Source of the DNA: Duganella sp. Leaf126
GTDB lineage: Bacteria > Pseudomonadota > Gammaproteobacteria > Burkholderiales > Burkholderiaceae_D
Assembly (NCBI RefSeq): GCF_001423125.1
Contig: NZ_LMNW01000001.1
Location: 775,808 to 839,807 of the forward strand
DNA length: 64,000 nucleotides
Direction of reading: 5' to 3'
The stretch's first letter is position 1. Each line of letters starts with the position of its first letter. Shown here piece after piece: positions 3,413 through 46,094 of this stretch. The notes below the pieces were generated by a model, which worked only from the letters and a program-made list of their open reading frames with translations, had not been told where the DNA came from and searched no databases. Both the position numbers and the translations under genes were made by a program.

Positions 3413-3570
3413 CGTTCTAAACCCAACTTAATAACAACGTGGACAACCCGGACGAAGTCCGGGGACGAATCTCAGTCTCGATCGAGCGGACGCTGCAAGC
3501 GCGCAAAGCCGGCCTCAGGAACCAGCCAAAAACAGCGTATACGATGCGCACACTAAATAGAGAACTCGAA

Positions 3571-3599: not shown

Positions 3600-3744
3600 C
3601 ATAAATGGCAGAAAGATGTGCTAGCGGCACACATGAAAATTGCCAGAATACAATCATAAAAGCCGCCCGCGCCGGCCGGAAACGCCTGATAATAGCGGAC
3701 TCTCCCATTCACCGCTGTCCTGACCGCCGTTCCCGTTGCCTCCC

Positions 3745-5451
3745 ATGCGATCCGTGTTGCGCTTCCCTCCCCTGTTCGTGCTCGGCAGCTACCTGCTGCT
3801 GTCGCTGGTGCCCTGCGTGCCGCTCTTGCTGGGCCGGCCGGCGCCCGGGCTGGACGCCATCCTCGGCGTCGAGGTGCTGCTGTGGGTGGTGGCGTGGGGC
3901 GTGTTCCAGCGCCCGGCCTGGTTCCACTGGCTGCTGCTGCCCGCCGTGCTGGCACTGCCGACCGAGCTGTACCTGTTCATGTACTACGGCCAGGGCATTT
4001 CCACGCACCACCTCGGCATCATCGCCGAAAGCAGCCCGATGGAAGCGATGGAGTTTCTCGGAAACAAGATCTGGCTGATGGCAGGCGTGCTGGTGGCCAT
4101 GCTGGCCTGGTGGACCGCGATCTTCCTGGCAGCGCGGCGCAGCCCGGCACTGGCCTGGCGCGGCAAGACCCGCTGGCTGGTCGTGCCGGCAATCGCCGCG
4201 CTGGCCGTGCTGGGCTGGCCCACCCCGACGCCGATGTTCCAGCAGGCGCCGTTCAGCTTCAATAACTTTGCCAACTCCTGGCCGTTCGGCCTGCTCGCGC
4301 GCGGCGTCGATTTTTACAACGAGCGCCGCTACCTGGCCGCACTCGGCGAGCGCAGCAGGAACTTCACGTTCCGGGCCCGCCAGGCCGCGCCCGACAAGGA
4401 ACCGGAAGTGGTGGTCATGGTGATCGGCGAATCGTCGCGGTACGACCGCTGGGGCATCAACGGCTACGCGCGCGCCACCACCCCGCTGCTGGCCCAGGAA
4501 CCCAACCTGGTGTCGCTGACCGACATGATCACGTCCGTCTCGGCCACGCGGTTGTCGGTACCGGTGCTGGTTTCGCGCAAGCCGGCAACGCAGAGCCTGA
4601 AGGCCGGCTTCTCGGAAAAATCGTTCCTGACCGCCTACAAGGAAGCAGGCTTCAAGACCTGGTGGTTGTCGAACCAGATCTCGTTCGGCGAGTTCGACAC
4701 GCCGGTGTCGGTGTTCGCCAAGGAGGCGGACGTGATCCAGTTCATGAACCTGGGCAGTTTCAACAACCGCTCCAACCTCGACCAGATCCTGCTCGGGCCG
4801 CTGCAGCAGGCGATGCACGATCCGTCGCCGAAAAAGCTGATCGTGCTGCACACGCTGGGCAACCACTGGAATTACAGCGAGCGCTACCCCAAAGAGTTCG
4901 ACCAGTGGCAGCCGTCGCTGTTCGGCGTGGACAAGCCGGAACACACGAATGTCAAGATCAAGACCGAGCTCAATAACAGCTACGACAACGCGATCCTGTA
5001 CACCGACTGGTTCCTGGCCCAGGTGATCGGCCAGCTCAGGCAGAGCGGCCAGCGCACGGCGATGATGTATGTGGCCGACCACGGCCAGGTGCTTTATGAC
5101 GGCAGCTGCCAGATCGCCTTCCACGGCCATAACACGCAGTACGACTTCCACGTGCCGGCGCTGGTGTGGTATTCGGACCAGTACCAGTCGCGCTACCCGG
5201 ACAAGATCCAGCAACTGAAACGCCTGCGCAAGGCCAGGCTGGCCACCGAAAACGTGTTCCACAGCCTGCTCGACCTCGGCGACATCGCCTATCCCGACCA
5301 GCACCTCGAGTGGAGCTTCCTGAGCCGGCAATTCAAGCCGCACACGCGCTACGTGGACAGCTACGGCTGGGCCCACTACGACAATGCCACCTTCAAGGGC
5401 GATTGCCGCGAGGTGATCGACAAGGGCACGCCGCTCAAGCGCGAGAAATAA
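3745..5451 (+). CDS. Phosphoethanolamine transferase / sulfatase-family inner-membrane enzyme
   Basis: The 568-residue protein has an N-terminal membrane domain (hydrophobic stretches at about 8-30, 42-80, 108-130 and 143-158) and a periplasmic alkaline-phosphatase-like domain. The domain has metal-site motifs VIGESSRYDRWGINGYARAT (Glu229) and ADHGQVLYDG. The nucleophile region ITSVSATRLSVP (Thr268 or a nearby Ser/Thr) precedes a histidine-rich FHGHNTQYDFH segment. This is the EptA/CptA architecture that moves phosphoethanolamine from phosphatidylethanolamine to lipid A, core sugar or glucan. The acceptor is not evident. ATG at 3745 is preferred to the TTG three codons earlier. It is monocistronic and converges on the epimerase gene at 5518. 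Confidence 0.82.
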   Translation: MRSVLRFPPLFVLGSYLLLSLVPCVPLLLGRPAPGLDAILGVEVLLWVVAWGVFQRPAWFHWLLLPAVLALPTELYLFMYYGQGISTHHLGIIAESSPMEAMEFLGNKIWLMAGVLVAMLAWWTAIFLAARRSPALAWRGKTRWLVVPAIAALAVLGWPTPTPMFQQAPFSFNNFANSWPFGLLARGVDFYNERRYLAALGERSRNFTFRARQAAPDKEPEVVVMVIGESSRYDRWGINGYARATTPLLAQEPNLVSLTDMITSVSATRLSVPVLVSRKPATQSLKAGFSEKSFLTAYKEAGFKTWWLSNQISFGEFDTPVSVFAKEADVIQFMNLGSFNNRSNLDQILLGPLQQAMHDPSPKKLIVLHTLGNHWNYSERYPKEFDQWQPSLFGVDKPEHTNVKIKTELNNSYDNAILYTDWFLAQVIGQLRQSGQRTAMMYVADHGQVLYDGSCQIAFHGHNTQYDFHVPALVWYSDQYQSRYPDKIQQLKRLRKARLATENVFHSLLDLGDIAYPDQHLEWSFLSRQFKPHTRYVDSYGWAHYDNATFKGDCREVIDKGTPLKREK

Positions 5452-30472: not shown

Positions 30473-32857
30473 TTATGCGACCACCGGGTCGGCAGCCGAC
30501 GGCGGTCGCGGGTGGGCGCGGTGGGCGCGCTGCTCGCGCCACCACAGCGCCAGCAGGCACAGCGCGCACAGCATGGCAAACGGCGCAGCCGGCAGCGAGC
30601 GACTGCCGGCCAGATGGCTGTCGTCGTTGCTGGCGTTGTTGATGGTGCCTTTGCTGGCTTTGTTGATGGCGCCTTCGCTGACCTCGTTGTTAGCGCCTTT
30701 GCTGGCATCGTTGTTAGCGCCTTTGTTAGCGTCGTTGTTGGCGCCTTTGTTAGCGTCGTTGTTGGCGTTATTGTTAGCGTCGTTGTTGGCGTTGTTGATG
30801 TTGCCCCTATTGGCGTATTTGCTGGCGACGTTGTTGATGTCGTTGTTGGCGCTGTTAATGGTACCGCGACTGGCGTCGTTGTTGGCGTAGGTAGCAGCTT
30901 TGCTGGCGCGCCGCGTCGTGCCTGTGCTGCGTGCCGCATAAATTGCCGTCGCCTCACGCCGTAAGCCGCGCTGCCATGCCGGCCAGTCGCCGGGCGCATA
31001 AATGTAGTGGCGCCCGGCAGGCAAGCCGTCGCTGCGGAACGTCAGCCAACCTGCCTGCGGCGCCCACACGGCGGCGCACACGGTGTCGGCCTTGTCGGTG
31101 CGCGCCAGCAGGCGGGCGTCGGCCAGCCCGTCGATGTGCAGCACGGCGCCCGGCCTGGCGCCTTGCGCGCAGATCTCGGTGCGCAAGCCGGGCAGCGGCA
31201 TCGGGTCCGGCAGCACCCAGCCAGCCTTCGCCTCGCCGGCCAGCGCCATCGCATCGAGCGCCGCCTGCCACCACAGCGCAAGCGCGCGTGGCGCACTGAT
31301 CGCGTAGCGGTGCCAGTCCGCCACGCCCAGCCACACCACGCGGCCCTGGCCCAGCGCACGCTGCCACGCCCAGGGACGCGCCTTGCTGTCGCGCGCCAGC
31401 GCGCTCCACGCGCCGCCTGGCGCATCGTCCGGATTGAGCGCCGCCGGCGCCAGGTCCAGTTCCGTGCCGGCCAGCGTGAAGCGACGCACATCCGCCGTCT
31501 CGGTGGCAGGCGACTGTGGCCTTACCGGCAGCGCCAGCTCGCGCTGCCACAGCGCGGCATCGGCCGCATTGCCGCCCAGGACCAGCAGCGGCACGCCACT
31601 GCGCACCTGCGCCAGCAGTGCAGCGCGTGCCGCCGGCGCCAGCCGTTCGACGTGGGCAGCATCGACCACCAGCGCGTTCGGCGCCGTGATCGGCGTGCGC
31701 GCGGTTTCGCTGCGGACCATGGACTTGCCCAGCGCGACCTGCCAGTCGAGCACCGCGCCGCCGTCGGTCAGCACCCGATTGAGCACGCTGGCGTCGAACG
31801 ACGGCGCGTTGAAGCGGCCGATGATGTGCAGCGGTGCCGGCGCCGTCACCTGAACCGGTACCGGCCCTTCGGCAACGACCTTGCCGCCGGCGTCGAGCAC
31901 GCGCGCGCGCAATACCATCGCTTCCACTACCGGCGGCAGCCACTGGACGGATTTTTGCGCCGGATTGCCGACGCCAGCACCTGCATCGGGGGAGTCGGCA
32001 GAAGCTGCATCGGCCGACCTGCCCGGCTTACTTGCGCTGGCGGTAGCGACCGGCCCGGTCACACTGGCCGCTCGCGCGGAGCTGACCGTTTCAATCGTGC
32101 CGGCTGCGCTGGCTGAGCTGACTGATTTGGTCGTGCCGGCTGCGCTGGCTGCGCTGACCGATTCGGTTGCGCTGGCTGCTTTGGCGCTGTGCCTCGGCCC
32201 GATCACGCTGGCCGCTTCGGTGGGGCCGACCATGTTGATCGGGCGGGCTGCGCTGGTTGTACTGGCCGGTCCGGTCATGCTGGCCGCCCTGCCGGGGCGG
32301 ACGTCTTCCATGATGCCGGCCGCACCCGGTACCTGGACGATTTTTTCGGCGCCAGCGGCGGGCGCGGCACGACCTGGGCCGGCAGCACTGGCAGAATCGG
32401 CCAGCAGCTGGCCGTTTTCCGCCAGCAGTTGCAGCCGCCAGTCGCCAGCCGGCTGCGGTTGGCGGACGGTCACCGTCAACATGCGGCCCAGTGCGATGGT
32501 GCGCGGGAAGTCGAGCGCCAGGGTCGGCTGTCCGGTGGGCGTCCAGCGCAGCGGACGGGCCGGCACATCCTGCCACTGGGCGGCGCGCAGGCCGTCGCCG
32601 GCCAGGTCGATGGCAGCGGCATCGGCAATCGCCTGCAGCGGGTCGCCGGCAATCGTGCCGTGGTCGTCGGTGGCGATCGTCACTGCGGCTGCAGGGATCG
32701 CCAGCCGGGCATCGGCTAGGGTCGCGGCCAGCGCCAGTCCCGCCAGCAGCACCAGCGCAGCGTTCAGCCACTGGCGCCGCCCGCCGTACAGCGCGGCGCT
32801 GACCAGGCCGATTACCAGAGCCGCGCCAGCCGGCGCCAGGTGGGTGACCGTGATCAT
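30473..32857 (-). CDS. Large membrane protein with three low-complexity inserts, last gene of the TldD-MoxR cluster
   Basis: The 794-residue protein starts with two membrane helices (about 6-24 and 32-50). It continues with an Ig-like segment, a glutamine-amidotransferase-like region ([33 protein letters not shown]) and a C-terminal helix (APFAMLCALCLLALWW). This matches BatB-like or DUF-type partners of MoxR operons, without a vWA domain. Residues 658-747 are an Asn/Ala/Asp-rich repeat array and about 170-280 an Ser/Ala/Gly-rich array. The ATG at 32857 overlaps the previous stop by four bases; a longer upstream frame is rejected. No catalytic triad was verified. Function is unknown beyond membership of the cluster. 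Confidence 0.72.
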   Translation of the reverse strand: MITVTHLAPAGAALVIGLVSAALYGGRRQWLNAALVLLAGLALAATLADARLAIPAAAVTIATDDHGTIAGDPLQAIADAAAIDLAGDGLRAAQWQDVPARPLRWTPTGQPTLALDFPRTIALGRMLTVTVRQPQPAGDWRLQLLAENGQLLADSASAAGPGRAAPAAGAEKIVQVPGAAGIMEDVRPGRAASMTGPASTTSAARPINMVGPTEAASVIGPRHSAKAASATESVSAASAAGTTKSVSSASAAGTIETVSSARAASVTGPVATASASKPGRSADAASADSPDAGAGVGNPAQKSVQWLPPVVEAMVLRARVLDAGGKVVAEGPVPVQVTAPAPLHIIGRFNAPSFDASVLNRVLTDGGAVLDWQVALGKSMVRSETARTPITAPNALVVDAAHVERLAPAARAALLAQVRSGVPLLVLGGNAADAALWQRELALPVRPQSPATETADVRRFTLAGTELDLAPAALNPDDAPGGAWSALARDSKARPWAWQRALGQGRVVWLGVADWHRYAISAPRALALWWQAALDAMALAGEAKAGWVLPDPMPLPGLRTEICAQGARPGAVLHIDGLADARLLARTDKADTVCAAVWAPQAGWLTFRSDGLPAGRHYIYAPGDWPAWQRGLRREATAIYAARSTGTTRRASKAATYANNDASRGTINSANNDINNVASKYANRGNINNANNDANNNANNDANKGANNDANKGANNDASKGANNEVSEGAINKASKGTINNASNDDSHLAGSRSLPAAPFAMLCALCLLALWWREQRAHRAHPRPPSAADPVVA
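30617..30886 (-). repeat. Asn-rich in-frame repeat array near the C-terminus
   Basis: About 90 residues (658-747) follow an eight-residue, 24-bp unit like ANNDANKG with a four-residue sub-period. Asn codons make this stretch AT-rich in an otherwise GC-rich gene. The array lies just before the final membrane helix, so it would be a soluble extramembrane linker. Confidence 0.8.
32025..32345 (-). repeat. 36-bp repeats in the middle of the same membrane-protein gene
   Basis: Units beginning at 32084, 32120 and 32156 repeat every 36 bp and encode 12-residue Ser/Ala/Gly/Thr/Val blocks such as SAASAAGTTKSV. The flanks are diverged copies (TGPASTTSAARP-like). The array interrupts an Ig-like segment between ADSASAAG and WLPPVVEAMVLRARV. 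Confidence 0.6.
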
Positions 32858-35256
32858 CGTGGCGACTCCGGCGTGGGTAACGGCTGCGGCAGCGCTGATT
32901 GCCGTGGCGATGTCCGAGGTGACGCGGCGGGTGGCTGTGCCGGTTTCGCTTGGACTGGTGGTTGCGCTTGCGCCGGTGGTTGCGCCTGGGCCGGTGGTTG
33001 CGCTTGCGCCGCCGCTTTCGCGCGCGACTGCGCATCCGACGGCGTCTGCGCTGGCAGTTGCGCTGGCAGTTGCGCGTCCGGCTGCGTGGCTCCCTGCGCT
33101 TTTTCGCTCCCACGCCAGGCTTGTGCGAACGGCGCCTGCACGACCGTGCTTGCCTGCACCAGCACCGGTGCATCGGCCAGCGTGCTGCGCAGCCAGGCGC
33201 GTAGCGGAGCGCGGCATGGTATGCAGCCGTCGCGCACATCCTGCAACGCGCGTTGCGCCGCCAGCTTTTGCTCGGGGTCGGCGATGCGCGCGGCGATGGT
33301 GTCATGGGCGGCCTTGCTCCACAGTGCCGGCAGTGCGCCGTCCTGCGCCAGCGCCTGCACCAGGTCGCGCACTTCGGCCGGCACCGTGTCGTCCGGCGCA
33401 CCTTGTTCGCGCTTGTAGCTCATCGCACCCACCATGTCGCCGCTCATGCGCTTCTCCTCCTTGATCGCGGGTGGCACGAAGGCCGTCCGGTGCAGGTACA
33501 CGCGCTCGGCCGCCTGCAGCTCCTTGATGGCGTCGAGCGCCTTGTACTCGGGACCTAACGCCGCCTTGGGCGAGACGGCGCGCAGCGCCTTTTCCGCATC
33601 CCACATGGCGGCCAGCGCGCGTTTTAAAATCGCCTTGGTTTGCGGATCGAAGATGGTGGCGTTGCCTTCCTGGTCGTGGACATGGCCGAAGCGCTGCATG
33701 GCATCCACCTCGCTGCTGGCCGACGGTTTGCCGTGCTGTCCGCCGCCATGACCGTGTCCGTGTTCATCTTCATGCCCGCCTGCTTCGTGCCCGTGCTCGT
33801 CGCCGAACAGGCTAGATTCCTCTCCCAGAAACTGGCCGTAGCGCAGCCGCAGCGCGGCCTGGTCGGTGGCGATCGCCTCGCTGCGCGCGCGCAGGTCCGC
33901 CAGCGCGGGACGCGCCCGCAGGTCGGCCACCAGCTGCTCGGTATCGATGATGACCTGGCGCTGGCTGCGCAGGCTTTCCGGTTTGACCATGGTCGGCAGC
34001 GCGGTGGCGTCCACGCCCGCCGTTTCCGGCGCCGGCAGGCGCAAGGTATAGGTGGGCGACTGCACGGTGTGGGGATGCTCGGGATCGTTGTCGGTGGCGC
34101 GCACGAAGAAATACAGTTCGTCGCCGGGCTCCATGCCCAGCTCCTGCAGCGTCCATTGCTTGTTCCAGCTGCGCTGCCTGGGATCGGCCGACTTGGGCAA
34201 CGGTACTTCGCGGTCGGTGAAGCGCACGTTCTCGCCGCTGCCGCGCGCCAGCGTCATGTGCAGGCTGGCGCGCGCGATCGCGTAATCGTCACGCGCCGTG
34301 ACAGCGATGCGGGCGCTGGTCGCGTCGCCTGCCAGCACGTGGACCGGTTCATTCGGTTCCGTGATGGCGACCTGCGGCGCCTGGTCGGGGATGACGCGGA
34401 TGTTATAGCGCGTCGCGCCGCCGCTGCCCGCTTGTCGGGCACGCCAGAACAGCGGCTCTTGCACACCGCGCGTGGCGCAGTCCTCGGACTGGGACTTGTC
34501 CCCGCTTTCAGTGAGCACCAGCACGGCGCCGTCGCCCAGTTCCACCGCCTGACCGGGTGCAGGACGCGCAGCCATTGCCGTCGACTTGCGCACGCACCAC
34601 TGCACCCGGGCGTACTGCGGCACCGCGATATCGCGCGCCGCCGTTTCAAAGGCTGCCACGCCGGTATAGGCAGGAGGCGTCACGCGCAGGTAGATCTCGC
34701 CGGCGACTGGCGCACTGTTGGCCGTCGCCACGATGCCTGCCGGCGCCACCCCGGGGGCGGATGCTGCCTCGTACCGCCAGGCGGCGCCCGCGAAGGCCAG
34801 CGCCAGCACCACCGGCACGACCAGGGACGGCGCAGCCAGCGGCACGCGGTGGCGCGCAATGGCGCGGTAATCCGCAGCCGTCAGCAGTGCGTCCGCACCG
34901 CCGTGCAAGCGGGCGTGCGCGCTGCCCGCCAGGCGTGCAAGCAGGCGTTGCTGCTGCAGCCGCGCCAGCGGCGTCTTTGCCTGCCCTGCCAGCAGCGCGC
35001 TGCTGTCCTCCAGCGCCGGTATGGCGGCGTCCAGCCATGTGCTCCAGCAGCGTGCGATGCGACGCCGCCAGCGCCAGCCATCGCCCAGCATCCCGAGCGC
35101 CCAGGCGACCATCGCTGCCAGCATCCAGGCGCGCCCTGACGGCAGCAGCGCGGCCGCCGCCACCAGCGGCACCAGGGCAGCAAGCCAGCATGGCGCACGA
35201 CGGCGCAGCACGGCGGCCCACAGCCGCCGGCGCAGGACATCAGACGCGTCGGACAT
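32854..35256 (-). CDS. Large coiled-coil membrane protein (DUF4175-like) of the MoxR cluster
   Basis: The 800-residue protein has two to three N-terminal membrane segments (about 20-60, 145-165) and an Ig-like beta domain (IYLRVTPPAYTGVAAFETAA). A beta/helical body (VRATDNDPEHPHTVQSPTYT) leads into a long helical coiled-coil part. A His-rich stretch (DEHGHEAGGHEDEHGHGHGG, about 490-515) could bind metal. The C-terminus is a Gln/Pro repeat tail. It resembles DUF4175 proteins that neighbour MoxR/DUF58 genes. The assignment is by architecture only. It overlaps the BatA-like gene by 17 bases and the next gene by four, so the set is one transcription unit. Confidence 0.65.
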   Translation of the reverse strand: MSDASDVLRRRLWAAVLRRRAPCWLAALVPLVAAAALLPSGRAWMLAAMVAWALGMLGDGWRWRRRIARCWSTWLDAAIPALEDSSALLAGQAKTPLARLQQQRLLARLAGSAHARLHGGADALLTAADYRAIARHRVPLAAPSLVVPVVLALAFAGAAWRYEAASAPGVAPAGIVATANSAPVAGEIYLRVTPPAYTGVAAFETAARDIAVPQYARVQWCVRKSTAMAARPAPGQAVELGDGAVLVLTESGDKSQSEDCATRGVQEPLFWRARQAGSGGATRYNIRVIPDQAPQVAITEPNEPVHVLAGDATSARIAVTARDDYAIARASLHMTLARGSGENVRFTDREVPLPKSADPRQRSWNKQWTLQELGMEPGDELYFFVRATDNDPEHPHTVQSPTYTLRLPAPETAGVDATALPTMVKPESLRSQRQVIIDTEQLVADLRARPALADLRARSEAIATDQAALRLRYGQFLGEESSLFGDEHGHEAGGHEDEHGHGHGGGQHGKPSASSEVDAMQRFGHVHDQEGNATIFDPQTKAILKRALAAMWDAEKALRAVSPKAALGPEYKALDAIKELQAAERVYLHRTAFVPPAIKEEKRMSGDMVGAMSYKREQGAPDDTVPAEVRDLVQALAQDGALPALWSKAAHDTIAARIADPEQKLAAQRALQDVRDGCIPCRAPLRAWLRSTLADAPVLVQASTVVQAPFAQAWRGSEKAQGATQPDAQLPAQLPAQTPSDAQSRAKAAAQAQPPAQAQPPAQAQPPVQAKPAQPPAASPRTSPRQSALPQPLPTPESPR
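32935..33010 (-). repeat. 18-bp Gln/Pro repeats at the end of the coiled-coil protein gene
   Basis: Three to four copies of a six-residue AQAQPP unit close to the C-terminus (AQAQPPAQAQPPAQAQPP). Such repeats are prone to copy-number change, and the encoded tail is likely disordered. Confidence 0.65.
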
Positions 35257-36418
35257 GGGTCATGATCCGTTCCAGTAAAAACAGGCCCATCACGAGCAGG
35301 GCAATCCAGTGGGTAGGACCGGCATCGGGCAGCACAGTGGCAACCGGGGCCGCGGCAAACCGGTGCGACGGCGCCGGATAGGCGGGCGCCGGCGCGGGGT
35401 CCAGCAGGCGCCAGGCCTCGAACAGCGCGCGCGCCGTGGCGGCATCCTGCGGCGGAAACGCGGGCGACGTCCACAGGCGGCCGCGCGGACTGTCGGCATA
35501 TCGGAATGCGATGCCGTTGACGGTGATGGCGGCGGCATGCGCCATCTCCGGCCAGCGCTCATCGCTGCCGCCGCCGCTGAAGCCCGCCAGCCACCAGTGC
35601 GGCGCGCGCCAGGCGGCGGGCGGCGCCGGTGCCGATGCCGAATCTACCGACGCAGCGCGCGCATCGGGCGCGCTGGCGCCGTCCCAGACGATCAATGCCG
35701 TGTCGGGCCGGGGCGCATTGGCGAGCAGGTAGCGTCGCTTGCCGCCGCCGCCCTGGTCGAACGCGGTAAACAACGCGCGCCAGGCCGGTGCCCGCGCGGA
35801 CGACGCCGCCAGCACGACCGGGTAGGTGGCAGGTATAGCGGTGGGCATAGCAACGGCGCCAGCCGATGCGGCAACGGCAGGATGGGCGGTAGCGGGTAGC
35901 GTACCGGCTGCAGGGGCTGCCGCAGCAGGTTCGGCATGTACCCGCAGTTCCACCGCGTGGTCGAACTGCGGCGCCCGCGCCGGCATGGCGATCCGGCCTT
36001 CGCGCGCCAAAATCAGCACGCGGGCATGGGCGCGCCAGTCACGTTCGTGGCGGCGCAGCCAGGCCAGTGCATCGGGCGGCAGCGCGATGCGGCGCGCGCC
36101 GGTCATGCCGGCATCGGCGATCTGGCGCGTGGTCCACGCCGGATCGGCGTCGGCATCGACCAGCACCGTATCGCCGCGCCACGGGAACACGACGGCAGCC
36201 AGCAACGCGATCAGCGCCACCAGCAGCAGGCAGCGCAGCAGCAGTAAGAGGCGGTCGCGCCACTGCCACACGCGCAGTTGTTCGGGCGCGGCAGCGGGCA
36301 GAAAGCGCGCGGTGGCCAGCGGCCGGGCATCGATGCGCTGACGTTTCTGACGGTGCCACCAGATCGGCAGCAACAGCACTGGCAGCGCCAGCCACCACCA
36401 GGGGTAGAGACTGGTCAT
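35240..36418 (-). CDS. BatA-like membrane protein of the MoxR cluster
   Basis: The 392-residue protein starts with the BatA N-terminal double-helix module (MTSLYPWWWLALPVLLLPIW, then LLLLLRCLLLVALIALLAAV) with the basic stretch between. BatA proteins normally carry a vWA domain; no MIDAS motif (DxSxS) is evident here. A C-terminal helix (WIALLVMGLFLLERIM) follows a region with AGRPAP-type low complexity (about 170-210). It is translationally coupled to the DUF58 gene by an ATGA overlap at 36415-36418. It likely assembles with the MoxR and DUF58 products in the inner membrane. Confidence 0.72.
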   Translation of the reverse strand: MTSLYPWWWLALPVLLLPIWWHRQKRQRIDARPLATARFLPAAAPEQLRVWQWRDRLLLLLRCLLLVALIALLAAVVFPWRGDTVLVDADADPAWTTRQIADAGMTGARRIALPPDALAWLRRHERDWRAHARVLILAREGRIAMPARAPQFDHAVELRVHAEPAAAAPAAGTLPATAHPAVAASAGAVAMPTAIPATYPVVLAASSARAPAWRALFTAFDQGGGGKRRYLLANAPRPDTALIVWDGASAPDARAASVDSASAPAPPAAWRAPHWWLAGFSGGGSDERWPEMAHAAAITVNGIAFRYADSPRGRLWTSPAFPPQDAATARALFEAWRLLDPAPAPAYPAPSHRFAAAPVATVLPDAGPTHWIALLVMGLFLLERIMTHVRRV

Positions 36419-37335
36419 CGTGCGCGCGCTCCGGCCCGTTGCAACTGAGGCTGCAGCCAGCGCCGCAGCACATCGGTCAGCGGCTGTTCGATGCAGGCTT
36501 CGTGGTGGACGATGTCGTGCTGGCGGCAACTGCCGGCGATCGCCGCGAAGTGCGCGCTGCTGCGCGCCAGGTAGGCCGCACGGTCGGCCTGACCGAAGCG
36601 GTGCAGGCCGGCCTGCTGTTCGGGATCGCGGTAGGCCGTGCCGGTGGCAAAGCTGGCCTCGGCCTCGGCATGGGTGCGTACCGTCAGCAGGCGCACGTCG
36701 TGGCGCAGCTTGCGCAAGCGCAGCAGCGCCTCGGGGAGCGGCGCCAGCCCGGAGGCTCCGTGCCAGTCCAGGCCATCGGTGACGGCCAGCACCAGCCCGG
36801 GCGCACGCGCGAAGTGCAGGCACGATTTGACGCTCTCTGCGCTCGGCAGTACGCCATCGGGGCGCGCCGCTGCCAGTTGCGCCAGCACGCGCTGCAAGTG
36901 ACGCGGTCCGCGATCTGCCGGCGTCAACGCCACCTTGCCGCCGCTGAAAACGGCCAGGCCGAACGCATCGCCCTGGCGCTGGGCAATGGCGGCCATGCAG
37001 GCCAGCGCGGTGCGTGCGAACCACAATTTATCGACACCTTCGAGCTCGCGGCTCGGTTCCGCCATCGAGGCCGTGGCGTCGAGCCACAGCCAGGTGGCAA
37101 CGTGGCTGTCGCGTTCGGCCTCGCGCACGAAGTAGCGGTCGGCGCGCGCCAGCAGCTTCCAGTCCACGCGCCGCCACTCGTCGCCGGGGGCATAGGCGCG
37201 GTACTCGGAAAACTCGACGCCGGCGCCGCGTTCGCGGCCCGCATGGATGCCGTGACCGAGACCGGCCAGCACGTGGCGGATCACCAGCGCGAGGTCGCGC
37301 GTGGCGGCCAGCATGGCATTGGGCGACTGATTCAT
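36415..37335 (-). CDS. DUF58 domain protein (vWA-like, MoxR-associated)
   Basis: The 306-residue protein has the DUF58 signature EFSEYRAYAPGDEWRRVDWK and RADRYFVREAERD, followed by a vWA-like fold with LWLDATASMAEPS. These proteins nearly always accompany MoxR AAA+ ATPases and are thought to work as adaptor or substrate proteins. It is soluble; I see no membrane helix. It lies 11 bp after the MoxR gene and overlaps the BatA-like gene by four bases. Its presence with MoxR and BatA-like proteins marks a MoxR-type operon. Confidence 0.9.
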   Translation of the reverse strand: MNQSPNAMLAATRDLALVIRHVLAGLGHGIHAGRERGAGVEFSEYRAYAPGDEWRRVDWKLLARADRYFVREAERDSHVATWLWLDATASMAEPSRELEGVDKLWFARTALACMAAIAQRQGDAFGLAVFSGGKVALTPADRGPRHLQRVLAQLAAARPDGVLPSAESVKSCLHFARAPGLVLAVTDGLDWHGASGLAPLPEALLRLRKLRHDVRLLTVRTHAEAEASFATGTAYRDPEQQAGLHRFGQADRAAYLARSSAHFAAIAGSCRQHDIVHHEACIEQPLTDVLRRWLQPQLQRAGARAR

Positions 37336-37346
37336 CGAGTGCGCGG

Positions 37347-38354
37347 TCAGTCGGGACGGATATGCTCGCGCAGCGCCAGCAGGATGTCGGCAATCGCCAC
37401 ACCGTCGGCTTCGGCCTCGAAATTGCGGATCACGCGATGCGCCAGCACCGGCAGCAGCATGGCGCCGATGTCTTCGCGCGTGACGGCCAGCCGGTCGTGC
37501 ATCAGCGCCCGCGCCTTGGCCGCCAGCACCAGGGCCTGGCCGGCACGCGGACCGGCGCCCCAGCCCACGTGCTGCTTCACGGCCGGCACCGTGGTCAGCG
37601 CCGGCCGGGTGGCGCGCACCAGCCGCGTGGCGTACGCCAGCAGGTGGTCGCCGATGTCGATGTCGCGCACCAGTTGCTGCAGGCGCAGCAGCGTGGCCAC
37701 GTCCAGCACCGGCTCGGCGTCGTGCAGGCCGGCGTTGGTGGTGGCGGCCACCATGCGGATCTCTTCTTCCTCGGTCGGATAGACCACGTCGATGCGCAGC
37801 AGGAAGCGGTCGAGCTGCGCCTCGGGCAGCGGATAGGTGCCGGCCTGCTCGATCGGATTTTGCGTGGCCAGCACGAAGAAAGGCTTGGGCAGCGCATGGG
37901 TCTGGCCGGCGAAGGTGACGCTACGCTCCTGCATCGCTTCGAGCAGCGCCGACTGGGTTTTCGGCGGCGCACGGTTGATTTCGTCGGCCAGCAGCACCTG
38001 GGTGAACACGGGGCCCGGCTGGAAGCGGAACGAGCGCTGGCGCGTGGCCTGGTCTTCTTCGAGGATCTCGGTGCCGACGATATCGGACGGCATCAGGTCG
38101 GGCGTGAATTGCACGCGGTGGAACGCCATGTCGGTCGCCTGCGACAGCGACTTGACCAGCAGCGTCTTGCCCAGTCCCGGTACGCCTTCCACCAGCGCGT
38201 GGCCGCCGGCCAGCAGGCAGATGATGAGCGAGTCGATCACGTTTTCCTGGCCGATGATCACCTGCGACATGCTGCGCCTGAGCGCGGCCACCGCAGCGCT
38301 CAGGGCGCCGATTTCAGTCTCGTTCCAGGCGATAGCGCCTGCCGCATCCTTCAT
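37347..38354 (-). CDS. MoxR-family AAA+ ATPase
   Basis: The 335-residue ATPase has Walker A GVPGLGKT (57-64) and Walker B/DExx VLLADEINRAPPKTQSALLE. The sensor-1 region is FFVLATQNPIEQAGTYPLPE with arginine finger EAQLDRFLLR. The lid domain follows. MoxR ATPases are chaperone-like motors that activate or assemble partner proteins, often with metal centres. The start codon directly abuts the DUF4159 stop. Context suggests that it acts on TldD/TldE or the Bat-like proteins of the same cluster, which is an inference. Confidence 0.93.
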   Translation of the reverse strand: MKDAAGAIAWNETEIGALSAAVAALRRSMSQVIIGQENVIDSLIICLLAGGHALVEGVPGLGKTLLVKSLSQATDMAFHRVQFTPDLMPSDIVGTEILEEDQATRQRSFRFQPGPVFTQVLLADEINRAPPKTQSALLEAMQERSVTFAGQTHALPKPFFVLATQNPIEQAGTYPLPEAQLDRFLLRIDVVYPTEEEEIRMVAATTNAGLHDAEPVLDVATLLRLQQLVRDIDIGDHLLAYATRLVRATRPALTTVPAVKQHVGWGAGPRAGQALVLAAKARALMHDRLAVTREDIGAMLLPVLAHRVIRNFEAEADGVAIADILLALREHIRPD

Positions 38355-38972
38355 TTAAGCTCCCAACGCGTATTGAATGATATTGACCGCAAAGCGGGTG
38401 TTGTCGATGGCCAGAAAACGCTTGTTACGAAAGTCGTAGTCCCACTCGCAGCCGTAGTCCTTGTTGCTGTATAAAAGGCGCACCCGCCCGTTCACTTCCA
38501 CCGCCTTCAGGTAGTCGTGCACCAGGTCGTCGCCCCAGCCATTGAGCTCGACGCCGGTGGTGGGCGGGCCCTCGAACTTGAAAAAGCTCGAATACAGCGC
38601 GTGGTTGTTCGGGATTTTCTGCAAGGCGCGCTTGCCGAAGATGGCGGCGATCTCGGATTCGAACGACTTGGCGAACAGGCCGTCGATGTCGTGGTTGCAG
38701 TCGTCCACGAAGACGAAGCCGCCGCCCCTGACATAGCGCTCGAGGTTCTTGCGCTCGGCCGGCGTGAACTGCACCAGCTTGTGACCGGCGAAATAGCAGA
38801 ACGGCGCCTCCAGCATCTTGGGGTCGGACAGGGCCACGATGCGCTCCACCGGATCGACGCGCAGGGTCGTGTATTCGACCAGCGAATTGAGCACGTTGCT
38901 GGGCATGCGCACATCGACATCCCAGTCGCCCGACTCGTAGGTCAGGCGGGTGAAGTAGAAATCCCAGGCCAC
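38355..38972 (-). CDS. DUF4159 protein
   Basis: The 205-residue protein has a DUF4159 core of Rossmann-like character: APFCYFAGHKLVQFTPAERK, VRGGGFVFVDDCNHDIDGLF and NKRFLAIDNTRFAVNIIQYA. It resembles glutamine-amidotransferase-like folds. The start is GTG, with GGAGG eight bases upstream. No signal peptide is present; many DUF4159 proteins do have one, so the N-terminus may be shortened or this is a cytoplasmic form. It lies 18 bp after the TldE-B gene and abuts moxR. Function unknown; a sensor or partner role is inferred. Confidence 0.82.
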   Translation of the reverse strand: MAWDFYFTRLTYESGDWDVDVRMPSNVLNSLVEYTTLRVDPVERIVALSDPKMLEAPFCYFAGHKLVQFTPAERKNLERYVRGGGFVFVDDCNHDIDGLFAKSFESEIAAIFGKRALQKIPNNHALYSSFFKFEGPPTTGVELNGWGDDLVHDYLKAVEVNGRVRLLYSNKDYGCEWDYDFRNKRFLAIDNTRFAVNIIQYALGA

Positions 38973-38990: not shown

Positions 38991-40328
38991 CTACACCGCG
39001 TCCGACAGCGACGTGAAGTTGAAGTCGCGCACCTTCATCGGCGGGATCATCATCTGGAAGCGCACCTCGTCGCCGCCGATCACCACCGGTTTGCCCAGTT
39101 CCTCGATATTGTTCAGCATCGATACCGGGCTCTCGTTGAAGCGGAAGTTCTTGATCGGGTGCTTGATCTTGCCGTTCTCGATGTAGAAGGTGCCGTCGCG
39201 CGTGAGGCCGGTGAGCAGCAGCGACTGCGGATCGACCATGCGGATGTACCAGGTGCGCGTGACCAGCACACCCTTCTTGGTCGAGGCGATCAGTTCCTCG
39301 GTGGACTTGCCGCCGCCGGCCATGATCATGTTGCCGTGGCGGCCGATGGCGCGCTTGCCCTGCTTCCCGGCCCAGTAAGGCGTGTAGTCGAGCGAGGCGA
39401 TCCTGCCGCCCTTGATCACATCGGTGCGCTCGCGCGCCAGCATCGAGGCATTGTCCCAGCCCAGCACCGGCACATCCGGGTTCCAGGGATCGGCCCACAG
39501 GTTGACCTGTTTGTCGAACAGTTTTTCACCGAGGCGGTTGCCGCCGCCTTTTTTTGACAGGAAGCTGCGGCCTTCGTCGGCCTGGCGCGCGTCGAACGCG
39601 CCGAACATGCGGCCGATGATTTCGGAGGTGGCGGCCGGCTCCAGGATCACCGTGTAGCGGCCCGGCTCGATGGCCTTGGCATGGACCGAAGTGAGCGCCT
39701 TGTCGATGGCGATCTCGGACGCTTCACGCGCGTCGAAGCGGGCCGCGTCGTTGGCCGAGCGGGTCACCCAGCCCGAACCGAGGCCGTCCTCGGTGCGCGT
39801 GGTGACCGTAAAACCGAGATTGGTCAGGGTCTGGTAGCCGAACACGCCGTTCGAATTGGCTACCGTCTCGAAGCCGGTGGTGTCGCTGAAAAAGCCGGCG
39901 GCGATCAGCCCCTTCTTGCGCGCCAGCCCAATGCTGGTGGCGGCCACCTCGGCGCGGTACTCGGGGTCGATGGCGGCAGTCGCGGCGCTGTACGTGACCG
40001 ACGCCTTGTATACCTGCCCCTTCACGGCCGGCACGAACTCGGGATTTTCCGGCGCCAGGCGCGCCACTTCCTCGGCGCGGCGCACGGCCTTTTCCAGCGA
40101 TTTGTCATCGAACTCGTTGACCGACGCCGTTCCCTGGCGCTTGCCGAAGGCCACGCTCACGGTGAGCTGGGTGTTTTGCACCAGGCCGGCGGTGGACACG
40201 CTGTTGCGCGCGTAGCGCACGTTGCCGCGCTGGCTGCCGGAAATCTGCACCCGGCACTCGTCCGCTTTCGACAGCGCCATCACCTTGTCGCACACGTGTT
40301 TTGCTTCGTCCTGCGTGAGCATCTTCAT
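38991..40328 (-). CDS. TldE/PmbA-family protein, copy B
   Basis: The 445-residue protein is the TldE-type partner, lacking the zinc-binding HExxxH, with family blocks [55 protein letters not shown] and [20 protein letters not shown]. TldE forms a heterodimer with TldD that trims peptides, as in microcin B17 and CcdA processing. It has no signal peptide. It starts two bases after the stop of TldD-B. A close paralogue of the same length (copy A) is at 42000. A stretch of about 150 bp near 39140-39290 is almost identical to copy A. Confidence 0.92.
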
Positions 40329-40330
40329 GT

Positions 40331-41968
40331 TTATCCTATCTTGCGTGCGGTGTTGATCACATTGATACCGTTGAAGCGCGTGGTGGGCGAACCGTGCGAC
40401 ACCGCGCTGACCTGGCTCGGCTGACCCTTGCCATCGAAGAAGGAGCCGCCCATGCGCCAGTCGCGCGCATCACACAGCGCCGTGCAGGCATTCCAGAATT
40501 CCTGGGTATTGGACTGGTAGGCCACGTCCTCGAGCTGCTGGCCGATCTTGCCGTTCTTGATCTCGAAATACAGCTGGCCGCCGAACTGGAAGTTGTAGCG
40601 CTGCTGATCGATCGAGAACGAGCCGCGGCCGAGAATGTAGATGCCCTTCTTGACATCCTTGACCATCTCGTCGGGCGTGAGCTGCCTGGTACCGGCCTGC
40701 AGCGAGACATTGGGCATGCGCTGGAACTGCACGCTGCTCCAGCTATCCGCGTACGAGCAGCCCTGGGATGCCTTCTCGCCGATCACGTGGGCCTGGTCGC
40801 GCGTGGCTTGGTAGTTGACCAGGATGCCGTCCTTGATGATGTCCCAGCGCTTGGCCGGCACACCCTCGTCGTCGTAACCGACGCAGCCCAGCGATGCGGC
40901 CGTGGTGCGGTCGGCAACAAAATTGACGATGCTGGACCCGTAGTTGAATCGTTTGCTCTGCCACTTGTCGAGCGTGGCAAAGCTGGTACCGGCGTAGTTG
41001 GCCTCGTAGCCGAGCACGCGGTCCAGTTCCGTGGCGTGGCCCACCGACTCGTGGATGGTCAAAAACAGGTGCTCGGGCGAGAGCACCAGGTCGTATTTGC
41101 CCGGCTCCACCGACTTGGCGCCGAGTTTTTCGCGCGCCTGGCGGCCCGCAGCGCGGGCGTCCTCGATCAGGTCGTAGGCGCCGTGGTACAAGGTGGTCAC
41201 GCCGCCGGCCGCCCTGACCTTGTGCTCGGGGCGCGCGTCGAAGAACTCATAGCCCATGGCGACCGGCGACGACAGGCCGTCACGGGTACGGAAGCGGTTG
41301 CTGGCCTTGTCCACGGCAGTGGCGGTAAACGGCGACCACAGGCGGTGCATGTCCTGGTCGATGTAGGCGCCGTCGGTGGAGGCAAAATATTTTTGCTGGT
41401 TGACCTGGAACAGGTTGGCCTGCATGAAGTTGGCGCCGGCATCGAGCCCGGCCTTGTTGGCGGCAATCAGCAGTTCGGCCTTTTCCCGGATCGGCACGGC
41501 GCGCCAGTCCTTTTTGAACGGCGTGGCCCACGCCACCTCGCCCACGCCTTTGACCGGCGCCAGCTCCACCGGCGCCGTTTGCAGTTTGCCGTTGGCGCGG
41601 GCGATCGCCACCGCCTGCCGCGCCGCCTCGGCCACCGCATCGGGCGTCATCACATTGGTCGAGCAAAAGCCGTAGGCGCCGCCGGCGATCACGCGCACCC
41701 CGACGCCGGACGACTCGGTGTTGACGATGTCTTCGACGTTGAGGTCGCGCGTGGTGATGAACTGGTTCAGGTAACGGCCGATGCGCACGTCGCAGTAACT
41801 GGCGCCGGCCCTGGTGGCCGCATCGAGCGCGATATCGGCCAGCGATTTCTTGAACTGCACCGCCATCGGGTTGAGCAGCTCGTCGGCTGCGATCGCGTGT
41901 CCGAACACGGGAATCAGCAAGCTGCCGCCGGCGGCAGCGCCTACCTTTAAGAATGAACGTCGTTCCAC
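40331..41968 (-). CDS. TldD-family zinc metalloprotease, copy B, Tat-exported
   Basis: The 545-residue protein has the metal motif HExxxH at residues 306-311 (HESVGH) with ELDRVLGYEANYAGTSFATL after it. The start is GTG (VERRSFLKVGAAAGG) with CGGAG five bases upstream. Starting there gives a signal with RRSFLK, a match to the Tat consensus RRxFLK, and a hydrophobic core ending HAIA. Longer in-frame extensions are implausible. It resembles copy A without gaps through at least residue 311. TldD proteases normally act in the cytoplasm, so export is the unusual point. Partner TldE-B begins two bases downstream. Confidence 0.92.
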   Translation of the reverse strand: MERRSFLKVGAAAGGSLLIPVFGHAIAADELLNPMAVQFKKSLADIALDAATRAGASYCDVRIGRYLNQFITTRDLNVEDIVNTESSGVGVRVIAGGAYGFCSTNVMTPDAVAEAARQAVAIARANGKLQTAPVELAPVKGVGEVAWATPFKKDWRAVPIREKAELLIAANKAGLDAGANFMQANLFQVNQQKYFASTDGAYIDQDMHRLWSPFTATAVDKASNRFRTRDGLSSPVAMGYEFFDARPEHKVRAAGGVTTLYHGAYDLIEDARAAGRQAREKLGAKSVEPGKYDLVLSPEHLFLTIHESVGHATELDRVLGYEANYAGTSFATLDKWQSKRFNYGSSIVNFVADRTTAASLGCVGYDDEGVPAKRWDIIKDGILVNYQATRDQAHVIGEKASQGCSYADSWSSVQFQRMPNVSLQAGTRQLTPDEMVKDVKKGIYILGRGSFSIDQQRYNFQFGGQLYFEIKNGKIGQQLEDVAYQSNTQEFWNACTALCDARDWRMGGSFFDGKGQPSQVSAVSHGSPTTRFNGINVINTARKIG

Positions 41969-41999
41969 TGATACTCCGATAAGCTGACGGTCGCCCGCC

Positions 42000-43337
42000 C
42001 TACACCGCGTCCGACAGGGACGTGAAATTGAAGTCGCGCACGCGCATGGCCGGCACCAGCAGCTGGTATGTCGATTCGTCGCCCGACAGGATCTCCGGCC
42101 GGCCCAGTTCATCGATATTGTTCAACATCGTCACCGGGCTTTCGTTGAAGCGGAAGTTCTTGATCGGATGCTTGATCTTGCCGTTCTCGATGTAGAAGGT
42201 GCCGTCGCGCGTGAGGCCGGTGAGCAGCACCGACTGCGGATCGACCATGCGGATATACCAGGTGCGCGTGACCAGCACGCCCTTCTTGGTATTGGCGATC
42301 AGCTCCTGGGTGGACTTGTCGGTACCGGCCATGATGATGTTGCCGGGCGCACCTACGGCGCGCTTGCCCTGCTTCCTGGCCCAGTACTGCGAATAATTGA
42401 GCGCGTCGATACGGCCGTTCTTGATCAGGTCCTGGCGCTCCCGCGCCAGCAGCGAACCGCCGTCCCACGGCAGCACGGCCACCTTGGCGTCCCACGGATC
42501 GCTCCACACATTGACCTGTTCATCGAACAGCTTTTCGCCGTGACGATTGCCGCCGCCCTTTTTCGACAGGAAGCTGCGGCCCTCGTCGGCCTCGCGTGCG
42601 CCGAAGGCGTTGAACATATAGGCCAGGATGTCGGACGTGGCGGCCGGCTCCAGCACCACCGTGTAGCGCCCCGGTTCCAGCGCCTTGGCCTCCACCGAGC
42701 GCAACGCCTTTTCGATGGCGACGTCGGACGCTTCGCGCGCATCGAACCTGGCCGCATCGCCCACGCTGCGCTTGGCCCAGCCGGAGCCGCGCCCGTCTTC
42801 GGTGCGCACCGTGAGGGTGAAGTCCAGGCCCGTGTCGCGCTGGTAGCCGAAGATGCCGTTGGAGTTGGCCACGGCCGAGAAGCTGGCGCTGTCGGTAAAG
42901 AAGCCGGCAGCCACCAGCTTGTTCTTGCGGCTGTTCTCGATGCTGTAGGCCGCCACCTGGGCGCGGAATTCGGGGTCGATGTCGGCGGTCTTCTGGAAGA
43001 AGGTCTCGCTGGCCTTGTACTGCTGCTTCGATGGCGTGGGCATGAATTCCGGGTTGTCCGGCGCCAGCCGCGCCAGCTCCTCGGCGCGCCGCACGGCACG
43101 CTCGATGGCCTTGTCGTCGAGTTCATTGACGGTGGCGACGCCCTGCTTCTTGCCAAAGGCAACCGAGATCGCCAGCTCGGTGTTTTCCACCAGCCCTGCG
43201 GTGGACACGGCATTGCGGGCGTACCGGATATTGCCATAGCGGCCGCCGTTCAGGTTCACTTCGCACTGGTCGGCGCTGGTCAACGACAGCACTTTGTCGC
43301 AGATGCGCTTGGCGTCGTCCTGGTTCAGGTTTTTCAT
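42000..43337 (-). CDS. TldE/PmbA-family protein, copy A
   Basis: The 445-residue protein matches copy B in length and shares blocks [35 protein letters not shown] and [20 protein letters not shown]. It lacks the HExxxH motif, as expected for TldE, and lacks a signal peptide. It starts 16 bp after TldD-A and ends 31 bp before TldD-B. With TldD-A it should form a heterodimeric peptidase. The two pairs arose by tandem duplication, and the conserved tract shared with copy B hints at later gene conversion. Confidence 0.92.
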
Positions 43338-43353
43338 CGATCAGTCTCCAGGC

Positions 43354-44991
43354 TCAGGATATTTTGCGGGCGGTGTTGATGACGTTGATGCCGTTAAAGC
43401 GCGTGGTGCTGGCGCCGTGCGACACCACCGACACCTGCGAGGGCTGGCCTTTGCCGTCGAAGAAGGAGCCGCCCATGCGCCAGTCACGCTCGTCGCACAT
43501 GGCGGTGCAGGCATTCCAGAATTCCTGGGTATTGGACTGGTACGCCACGTCTTCGAGCATCTGGCCGATCTTGCCGTTCTTGATCTCGTAGAACAGCTGG
43601 CCGCCGAACTGGAAGTTGTAGCGCTGCTGGTCGATCGAGAACGAGCCGTCGCCGACGATGTAGATGCCCTTCTTGACATCCTTGACCATCTCGTCCGGGG
43701 TGAGCTGCTTTTTACCTGCCTGCAGCGAGACATTGGGCATGCGCTGGAACTGCACGCTGCTCCAGTTATCGGCGTACGAACAGCCGTGCGATGCCTTCTC
43801 GCCGATGATGGCCGCCTGGTCGCGCGTGGCCTGGTAGTTGACCAGGATGCCGTCCTTGATGATGTCCCAGCGCTTGCACGGCACCCCCTCGTCGTCGTAG
43901 CCGACATTGGCCAGCGAGCCGGGCGTGGTCTTGTCGGCAACGATGTTGACCAGGTCGGAGCCGTACTTGAATTGTTTGGTCTTCCATTTGTCGAGCGTGG
44001 CGAAGCTGGTGCCGGCGTAATTGGCTTCGTAGCCGAGCACGCGATCGAGCTCGGTCGGGTGGCCCACCGATTCGTGGATGGTCAGCCACAGGTGCTCGGG
44101 CGAGAGCACCAGGTCGTATTTACCCGGCTCCACCGACTTGGCGGCCAGCTTTTGCCTGGCCTGTTTGCCGGCCGCGCGCGCATCTTCGATCAGGTCATAG
44201 GACTTGGTGTACAGCGTGGTCACGCCGCCGGCCGCCTTGACCTTGTGCTCGGGGCGCGCGTCCAGGTACTCGTAGCCCATGCCCACCGGCGCCGACAGGC
44301 CCTGGCGCGTGCGGAACTTGTTGCTCTTCTGGTCCACGGCAGTGGCGTACACGGGCATCCACAGGCGGTGGATGTCCTGGTCGATGTACGAGCCGTCGGT
44401 GGAGGCGAAGTATTTTTGCTGGTTCACCTGGAACAGCATCGACTGCATGAAGCTGGCGCCGCCGTCCATGCCGGCCTTGTTGGCGGTGATCAGCAGCTCG
44501 GCCTTTTCCTTGATCGGCACCGTGCGCCAGTCCTTGACGATCGGCGTGGCCCAGGCCACCTCGCCCAGGCTTTTCACCGGCGCCAGCACCACCGGCTCGG
44601 TCTGCAGCTTGGCGTTGGCGCGGGCGATCGCCACGGCCTGGCGCGCAGCACCTGCCACGCCGTCGGGCGTCATGTCGCTGGTGGCGGCAAAGCCGTAGGC
44701 GCCGCCGGCGATCACGCGCACGCCCACGCCGGCCGATTCGGTGTTGACCACGTTGTCCACATTGAGGTCGCGGGTGGTGATGAACTGGTTCAGGTAGCGG
44801 CCCACGCGCACGTCGCAGTAACTGGCGCCGGCCTGGGTGGCCGCCGTCATCGCGGTATCGGCCAGCATTTTCTTGAACTGCAGGGCGACCGGATTGAGCA
44901 GCTCTTCGGCCGCGATGGCGCGGCCGAAGGCGGGCAGCAACATCGTGCCCAGCGCCAGACTACCGATATTAAGGAATGCACGTCGTTCCAT
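43354..44991 (-). CDS. TldD-family zinc metalloprotease, copy A, Tat-exported
   Basis: The 545-residue protein has HESVGH (306-311) as zinc/catalytic motif and the same downstream ELDRVLGYEANYAGTSF. The N-terminus MERRAFLNIGSLALGTMLLP has RRAFLN, a twin-arginine motif, with core ending GRAIA. ATG at 44991 is preferred to the ATG one codon earlier because GGAG is five bases from it. It is first in the ten-gene cluster. No convincing promoter was found in the 281-bp spacer upstream. No peptide-precursor gene could be recognised beside it. Function as an exported peptidase is inferred. Confidence 0.92.
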   Translation of the reverse strand: MERRAFLNIGSLALGTMLLPAFGRAIAAEELLNPVALQFKKMLADTAMTAATQAGASYCDVRVGRYLNQFITTRDLNVDNVVNTESAGVGVRVIAGGAYGFAATSDMTPDGVAGAARQAVAIARANAKLQTEPVVLAPVKSLGEVAWATPIVKDWRTVPIKEKAELLITANKAGMDGGASFMQSMLFQVNQQKYFASTDGSYIDQDIHRLWMPVYATAVDQKSNKFRTRQGLSAPVGMGYEYLDARPEHKVKAAGGVTTLYTKSYDLIEDARAAGKQARQKLAAKSVEPGKYDLVLSPEHLWLTIHESVGHPTELDRVLGYEANYAGTSFATLDKWKTKQFKYGSDLVNIVADKTTPGSLANVGYDDEGVPCKRWDIIKDGILVNYQATRDQAAIIGEKASHGCSYADNWSSVQFQRMPNVSLQAGKKQLTPDEMVKDVKKGIYIVGDGSFSIDQQRYNFQFGGQLFYEIKNGKIGQMLEDVAYQSNTQEFWNACTAMCDERDWRMGGSFFDGKGQPSQVSVVSHGASTTRFNGINVINTARKIS

Positions 44992-45194
44992 CATCTCTCC
45001 AGATAAGGCGGGAACGTCGAAAACCTGCCGCGCGTGTCGCCGCGGTCTCCGATGTCCCCGGTGATTCGGGCCAGCCGCCTGGGCAGCAGAAAGACAATAT
45101 TAGCGCCTGCTTAACAATCGGGATAGCAATATGTATTCCCGCTACCACAGCGATACACTGCGTTACACACCAATAGTAGACAGCGGCGATTCAC

Positions 45195-45275: not shown

Positions 45276-46094
45276 ATGAAGAAATACCTCGTGGCCGCTC
45301 TGGCCTGCACCACGCTGTTCGCCGCCGGCGGTGTCTCGGCGCAGACGGAAGACGCGAAACTCAAGGCTGCCATCGGCGCCAGTTCGCGCACGCCCGCCAA
45401 CGTGCAGCGCGACGCCAGCCGCCATCCTTACGAGACGCTGACCTTCTTCGGCATCCGCCCGAACATGACGGTGGTGGAGCTGGCGCCCGGCGCCGGCTGG
45501 TACACCGAGATCCTGGCGCCGTACCTGCGCGACAACGGCAAGCTGATCGCCGCCGGCAACGACCTGGCCTCGCCCAACGAGCGCGAACGCAAGGCTGCCG
45601 AGCGTTTCATGGAACGCCTCAACGCCAATCCGGCCGTCTACAACAAGGTGGCGCTGGGCGTGTTTTCGCCGCCGCGCAAATACGAATTCGCACCGAATAA
45701 CAGCGTCGACATGGTGCTCACCTTCCGCAACATCCACAACTGGATACCGACCGGCCCGGACAACCTCAAGCTGCTGTTCGCCAGCGTGTACGACAGCCTG
45801 AAACCGGGCGGCGTGTTCGGCGTGGTCGAGCACCGCCTGCCGGCCGCCAAGACCCAGGATGCCACCGCCAGCACCGGCTACATGCACGAGCAGTACGTGA
45901 TCAAGCTGGCCGAAGCAGCAGGCTTCAAGCTGGCCGCCAAGTCCGAGATCAACGCCAATCCGAAGGACACGGCCGACCACAAGGGCGGCGTGTGGGCGCT
46001 GCCGCCGACCTACGCCAACAAGGACGAGGGCCGGGCCAAGTACCAGGCCATCGGCGAGAGCGACCGCATGACGCTCAAGTTCGTCAAGCCGTAA
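45276..46094 (+). CDS. Exported SAM-dependent methyltransferase-like protein
   Basis: The 272-residue protein carries a clear signal peptide (MKKYLVAALACTTLFAAGGV, cut after SAQ), fixed by AGGAG seven bases before the ATG. After it comes a class I methyltransferase fold with motif I VVELAPGAGWYTEILAPYL, then VLTFRNIHNW and LKPGGVFGVVEHRLP. It matches the COG4798-type predicted methyltransferases. A SAM enzyme in the periplasm is odd, since SAM is made in the cytoplasm; the signal may direct a protein that no longer uses SAM. It is a single gene with a hairpin after it. Confidence 0.82.
   Translation: MKKYLVAALACTTLFAAGGVSAQTEDAKLKAAIGASSRTPANVQRDASRHPYETLTFFGIRPNMTVVELAPGAGWYTEILAPYLRDNGKLIAAGNDLASPNERERKAAERFMERLNANPAVYNKVALGVFSPPRKYEFAPNNSVDMVLTFRNIHNWIPTGPDNLKLLFASVYDSLKPGGVFGVVEHRLPAAKTQDATASTGYMHEQYVIKLAEAAGFKLAAKSEINANPKDTADHKGGVWALPPTYANKDEGRAKYQAIGESDRMTLKFVKP

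Follow-up and report, generated by a model that had tools for sequence, protein, structure and literature searches.

TldD/TldE proteases are widespread and have been studied as trimmers of peptides in the cytoplasm. The E. coli pair, TldD and TldE (PmbA; MEROPS M103; PDB 5NJ5), consists of proteins with three PmbA/TldD domains, of which only TldD carries the HExxxH motif, the adjacent partner being inactive. According to passages of Ghilarov et al. (2017; PMC5810440), the metal of E. coli TldD is held by two His residues and Cys454, the protein needs TldE for activity, and an Asp seems to replace the Cys ligand in some TldD proteins, Gemmatimonas being named; the same passages mention a report of an active TldD homodimer from Sulfolobus, with which the authors' own data disagree. 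In the available text of this article the terms "periplasm" and "secret-" do not occur, and its passages on export concern microcin. An operon of S. maltophilia comprising two TldD genes and genes for MoxR, a membrane protein, a putative protease and three hypothetical proteins appears in a passage of PMC7688217 as uncharacterised, with some genes downregulated in biofilms in all isolates; that passage reads the TldD proteins as gyrase inhibitors and leaves export unmentioned. For the Tat pathway, export of an untagged partner as a hitchhiker is known (a passage of PMC10924467). TldD occurs neither in that article nor in the main text of the Tat-substrate papers PMC12911857 and PMC6085387, the word periplasm is missing from the RiPP protease review PMC10885120, and no paper on an exported TldD was among the matches listed from mostly openly accessible literature, which does not establish its absence from print.

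The window, by which we mean the entire stretch of 64,000 nucleotides from Duganella sp. Leaf126 analysed here, contains a cassette with the order D1-E1-D2-E2 on the minus strand (44994 to 38991), its genes being separated by 16, 31 and 2 bases (Table 1). Open reading frames and Pfam profiles bear out the two tandem TldD-TldE pairs of the initial annotation (38991-44991 there, 38991-44994 here) together with their matched lengths of 545 plus 445 residues, and PmbA/TldD domains 1 to 3 all score above the Pfam cut-off in each of the four proteins. The second ATG of TldD1 (44991) is favoured by its relatives and is more likely to be the start than the first (44994); GGAGAG lies immediately 5' of this ATGATG, and CGGAG precedes the GTG start of TldD2. 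The DUF4159 gene starts 18 bases past TldE2, and the genes for MoxR, DUF58, the BatA-like protein and an 800-aa protein follow, all of them beyond the positions given in the initial annotation. Upstream, a divergent gene (45276-46094, plus strand) encodes what we take to be a SAM-dependent methyltransferase; its Sec-like signal peptide is odd for such an enzyme. At positions 1-4000 of the window the G+C content drops to 0.573, compared with 0.63-0.71 elsewhere.

Table 1. Features of the tldD/tldE cassette and of the genes that follow it (positions in the window)
Feature	Position	Strand	Remarks
TldD1, catalytic subunit	43354..44994	-	546 aa (545 aa from start 44991); HESVGH; Pfam
Tat signal peptide of TldD1, MERRAFLNIGSLALGTMLLPAFGRAIA	44911..44991	-	cleavage placed by eye before AEE
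TldE1, non-catalytic partner	42000..43337	-	445 aa; without HExxxH, without signal peptide
TldD2, second catalytic subunit	40331..41968	-	GTG start, 545 aa; HESVGH; Asp at third-ligand position
Tat signal peptide of TldD2, VERRSFLKVGAAAGGSLLIPVFGHAIA	41888..41968	-	cleavage placed by eye before ADE
TldE2, non-catalytic partner	38991..40328	-	445 aa; without HExxxH, without signal peptide
DUF4159 protein (PF13709)	38355..38972	-	profile match; no signal peptide in window
MoxR-type AAA+ ATPase	37347..38354	-	profile match
DUF58 protein	36415..37335	-	profile match
BatA-like protein	35240..36412	-	one predicted membrane segment; approximate start
800-aa protein	32854..35256	-	two predicted membrane segments near N-terminus
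Possible last operon gene	30473..32860	-	inside 914-aa ORF 30473-33217; approximate start

The window's pairs resemble that of E. coli in their three PmbA/TldD domains, in the restriction of HExxxH to TldD and in the adjacent inactive partner, and by eye residues E315, D317 and K515 around the site in the window's TldD (546-aa numbering) are the equivalents of E. coli Glu270, Asp272 and Lys456. E. coli TldD is distant in sequence (phmmer E 2.5e-14), and, unlike it, the TldD proteins of the window combine a Tat signal with an Asp in place of Cys454 and with an operon that contains DUF4159, MoxR and DUF58.

The twin-arginine N-termini noticed in both TldD proteins by the initial annotation are Tat-type signal peptides, TldD1 beginning with M(M)ERRAFLNIGSLALGTMLLPAFGRAIA-AEE. 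The sequence features of Tat substrates, an RRxphi-phi motif, an uncharged hydrophobic run and a cleavage region, were assessed with a rule of our own, a regular expression on the sequence only (RRx(F/L)(L/I) followed by at least 13 uncharged residues), and with the TatP motif RR.[FGAVML][LITMVF] (as quoted in a passage of PMC6085387), and both find them here. For comparison we assembled 177 TldD proteins of at least 60% identity, hereafter the clade: 158 derive from 79 loci, all near relatives, which represent the best 80 of 164 stretches confirmed in a scan of genome contigs, the remaining 19 being encoded in 12 genome regions (L145-L154, L161, L162), of which L145 belongs to the window's own family. 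The 79 loci consist mostly of close relatives (the best named one, among the best 80 of 164 stretches, is Duganella phyllosphaerae with 96% for TldD1, which suggests a Duganella-like member of the Oxalobacteraceae as source of the window), so the independent weight lies with the 11 regions that do not belong to the window's family; these stand at 64-68% identity, and several of them come from one genus. Our rule matches all 177 clade TldD of these loci and regions, as does the TatP motif with 13-26 uncharged residues after the arginines. With the window's two TldD included, the arginine pair is invariant in 179 of 179 aligned sequences, followed by Phe at position +2 in 178 and Leu in one, and by Leu or Ile at +3 in every case; the small-x-small region at the end of the signal is likewise kept. 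Around these arginines the first 30 residues take 120 distinct forms among the 177 relatives. The comparison of homologues, by which the initial annotation had proposed to judge the twin arginines, hence finds them conserved throughout and not noise.

One could regard the four proteins as ordinary duplicates of canonical TldD/PmbA, with an N-terminal extension that arose by chance, as they share the same three Pfam domains. Our rule, however, passes 51 of 3540 shuffled TldD N-termini (1.4%) and about 19 of some 720 longest ORFs taken as background from 19 of the 79 loci (approximately 2.6%; the raw count was 23 of 724, from which four clade TldD were removed), against 177 of 177 clade TldD, and this conservation refutes the explanation. 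The genome itself offers a further comparison, as it encodes elsewhere a canonical TldD with the motif HEAIGH and a PmbA without HExxxH, and a Tat-type N-terminus is absent from both. Identity between the window's TldD and this canonical TldD amounts to only 27% over residues 272-542. The scores of the two window TldD also fall far under the NCBIfam cut-offs, with 75.3 and 83 bits against 513 for the canonical TldD equivalog (NF008006) and 129.7 and 122.5 bits against 635 for archaeal TldD (NF040952). We consider a chance extension hardly credible, and conservation across the 177 relatives gives good support to the view that the Tat-type signals of the TldD proteins are real and under selection. 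As to the Tat machinery, one TatC scores over the cut-off in the same genome (C35:112077-112715).

The HESVGH motif, placed at residues 306-311 of both TldD proteins by the initial annotation, is found there in 545-residue numbering (from 307 in the 546-aa TldD1), and HExxxH is present in 177 of 177 clade TldD and in none of 166 TldE partners (at least 45% identity). At the position of the third metal ligand, on which the initial annotation is silent, TldD1 has Asp512 (513 in the 546-aa form) in the context FFDGKGQP. All 179 clade members have Asp in this column of the alignment. The remaining 16 rows, which represent 12 distinct genes and include the genome's own canonical TldD, the Actinomycetota sequences L163 and L164, and L155, all have Cys. 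An Asp third ligand is also noted for TldD variants of Gemmatimonas sp. in the passages of Ghilarov et al. (2017; PMC5810440). While M103 is defined with Cys as third ligand and the clade TldD carry Asp, we treat the clade as a variant and not as excluded from M103, because the same passages suggest that Asp can substitute. As far as seen among the sequences compared, the Asp ligand appears peculiar to the operon clade, and the enzymes would presumably retain peptidase activity with it. With a mean pLDDT of 40.5, an AlphaFold model of TldD1 built from 30 close rows was of insufficient quality and was left aside.

Tat-type N-termini also occur on TldD proteins outside the clade. Two more distant relatives (L168 and L169, 45 and 42% identity, from genomes G557 and G696) have them together with a Cys ligand, as does a TldD on a plasmid of Parabacteroides distasonis (P0001, L167:3200-4732, NZ_OY725834.1); three others (L170-L172) have the Cys ligand and no Tat-type N-terminus. 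All three twin-arginine proteins share with the clade an adjacent TldE without a signal and differ from it in keeping Cys. A strict coupling of the Tat signal to Asp is thereby ruled out, and export seems to be earlier than, or separate from, the acquisition of Asp. Tat-type TldD proteins have thus arisen more than once, or early. The Parabacteroides protein is of the canonical type, shows by eye a lipobox-like LLGSC, and its gene adjoins those for an unsignalled TldE and for sulfatase maturation; perhaps it is a Tat lipoprotein form of TldD in Bacteroidota. In L155, L163, L164, L179 (the surroundings of L169), L180 and L181, a blastp search (E 1e-3) found no relative of DUF4159, MoxR or DUF58 next to the pair; the surroundings of L168 (L178) end just past TldE, with the neighbours out of view.

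The clade is patchy and common to more than one class. In the window's genus it is carried by 30 of 37 genomes (E of 0), the other seven having canonical-level matches only; 13 of 398 genomes drawn from the phylum have a match of at least 65% identity. In the window's class four of 369 genomes match at E 1e-60, the same four being present in the phylum draw; two of 289 genomes from another class have a match of at least 65% identity, alongside two more distant Tat-type relatives. We found no match on viral contigs and none of at least 60% identity among 63 plasmid records. An unannotated stretch on a plasmid of Xanthomonas hortorum (L166) matches residues 2-87 of TldD1 only.

None of the 166 TldE partners passes the Tat-like rule. 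As TldE lacks a signal and is needed for activity in E. coli, it would have to be co-exported with TldD. We thus envisage that folding of TldD, metal binding and assembly with TldE all take place in the cytoplasm, and that the twin-arginine signal of TldD would carry the folded heterodimer through the Tat translocon, with TldE as hitchhiker; the signal would then be cleaved at AIA, and the pair would trim unfolded peptides in the periplasm. This export and co-export scheme, with action in the periplasm, is in our judgement the likely one. Of the initial annotation's claim of a periplasmic peptidase, the Tat-type signals stand, conserved as they are in 177 relatives, while action in the periplasm stands as a well-reasoned expectation only, TldE being unsignalled.

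The numbers of the two subunits bear on whether TldE travels along. Two copies of each subunit are present in 72 of the 79 loci (best 80 of 164), L110 has two TldD and three TldE, and in the remaining six a single TldE accompanies two TldD. Among these six, no trace of a second TldE is seen in L050, L089, L093 and L096, where both TldD stay; in L069 it is reduced to the last 48 residues with both TldD kept, and L114 is cut. The 12 regions comprise six with two TldD and one TldE, five with one of each and one with two of each. This variability implies that TldE may be dispensable for some TldD: one TldE may serve two TldD, or some TldD may act without it. TldD might then be exported alone, as a homodimer or a D1/D2 dimer, with TldE staying in the cytoplasm, where it could, for instance, act as a chaperone that helps TldD to fold or proofreads it before handing it over to Tat. 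The missing signal in 166 of 166 TldE, the six regions and four nearer loci with a single TldE, and the Sulfolobus homodimer report, disputed by Ghilarov et al., would agree with this. Against it, the activity of E. coli TldD depends on TldE (passages of PMC5810440, for this and for the homodimer report), none of the 91 clade loci and regions lacks TldE altogether, and the pair was seemingly duplicated as a unit. The latter fits trees of 54 TldD and 47 TldE, sampled from the 12 regions, from 15 of the 79 loci and from outgroups and shown without support values, in which both copies of TldD and of TldE split inside the window's group and TldD-only doublings arise separately elsewhere. We consider export of TldD alone unlikely, though a contender to be reckoned with, and prefer the exported heterodimer.

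All 12 clade regions retrieved show the gene order TldD/TldE-DUF4159-MoxR-DUF58. DUF4159 and MoxR are present in 77 and DUF58 in 76 of the 79 loci (best 80 of 164), those without (L090, L114, L095) being short. The 800-aa protein, for which Pfam and NCBIfam gave no match, has relatives at the same place in 12 of 12 regions; the possible last operon gene has relatives in three of 12. This gene content suggests a link of TldD/TldE to an envelope module of MoxR, DUF58, DUF4159 and membrane proteins, within which the pair would work. From the gene list in the passage of PMC7688217, which fits the D-D-E operon of L152, L161 and L162, the S. maltophilia operon appears to be the same as that of the clade. 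Our literature search found no paper on DUF4159. Its predicted fold (model pLDDT 66.2, middling) strongly matches 4I66 (E 2.7e-11) and weakly matches ThuA-like proteins (E 0.016 and worse). Models of defence systems gave only a weak match of MoxR to a restriction-enzyme model, which we take to reflect its ATPase domain.

Outside the window's family, DUF4159 begins with a signal peptide in each of the 11 regions (three of them near-identical and of the same genus); such peptides are absent in the window, in L145 and in the 77 loci holding DUF4159 (best 80 of 164); one match of the rule, in L099, is by eye upstream sequence and was left out. If the start closest to the domain is chosen, only one of 12 regions shows a signal, which is an artefact; with an explicit rule for upstream starts the count is 11 of 12, the twelfth being L145. 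Five of the signal-like segments contain RR (L149, L152, L153, L161 and L162, three of them near-identical); the other six have a single Arg or Arg-Lys instead. Across L146-L154, L161 and L162 these N-termini vary, with RRxFL at one end and RAxFL/RSxFL at the other, which looks like the decay of a Tat signal into a Sec signal or into no signal.

By eye, MoxR and DUF58 of the window lack a signal and look cytoplasmic. Together with the unsignalled TldE and, in the window's family, DUF4159, this would suit a TldD whose signal is real and yet uncleaved or unused, the enzyme staying at the inner membrane side or in the cytoplasm and acting like the canonical one. The invariant arginines (179 of 179) and the retained small-x-small region speak against an idle signal, as do the DUF4159 signals in other families and the separate canonical pair already present in the genome. 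An unused signal strikes us as quite improbable; export through Tat remains our preferred reading.

In its fullest form our proposal would be that of a dedicated periplasmic TldD/TldE branch, exported folded through Tat with a hitchhiker, in which Cys gave way to Asp after export had evolved and which acts on a peptide as partner of a MoxR/DUF58/DUF4159 envelope machine; for this whole chain we see the arguments as evenly balanced. The substrate role may be the maturation or clearance of envelope peptides, which is a guess. In the plainer reading preferred above, a peptidase so far studied in the cytoplasm probably has a place of work in the envelope as well. If so, a branch of the TldD/TldE family would be placed in the envelope, beyond the trimming of peptides in the cytoplasm. 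The finding would provide a first basis for understanding DUF4159 and why it persists in MoxR/DUF58 operons, and it would correct the printed gyrase reading of what looks like the same operon. It would also provide a natural example of a zinc site in which Asp has replaced Cys, and a possible new Tat hitchhiker pair.
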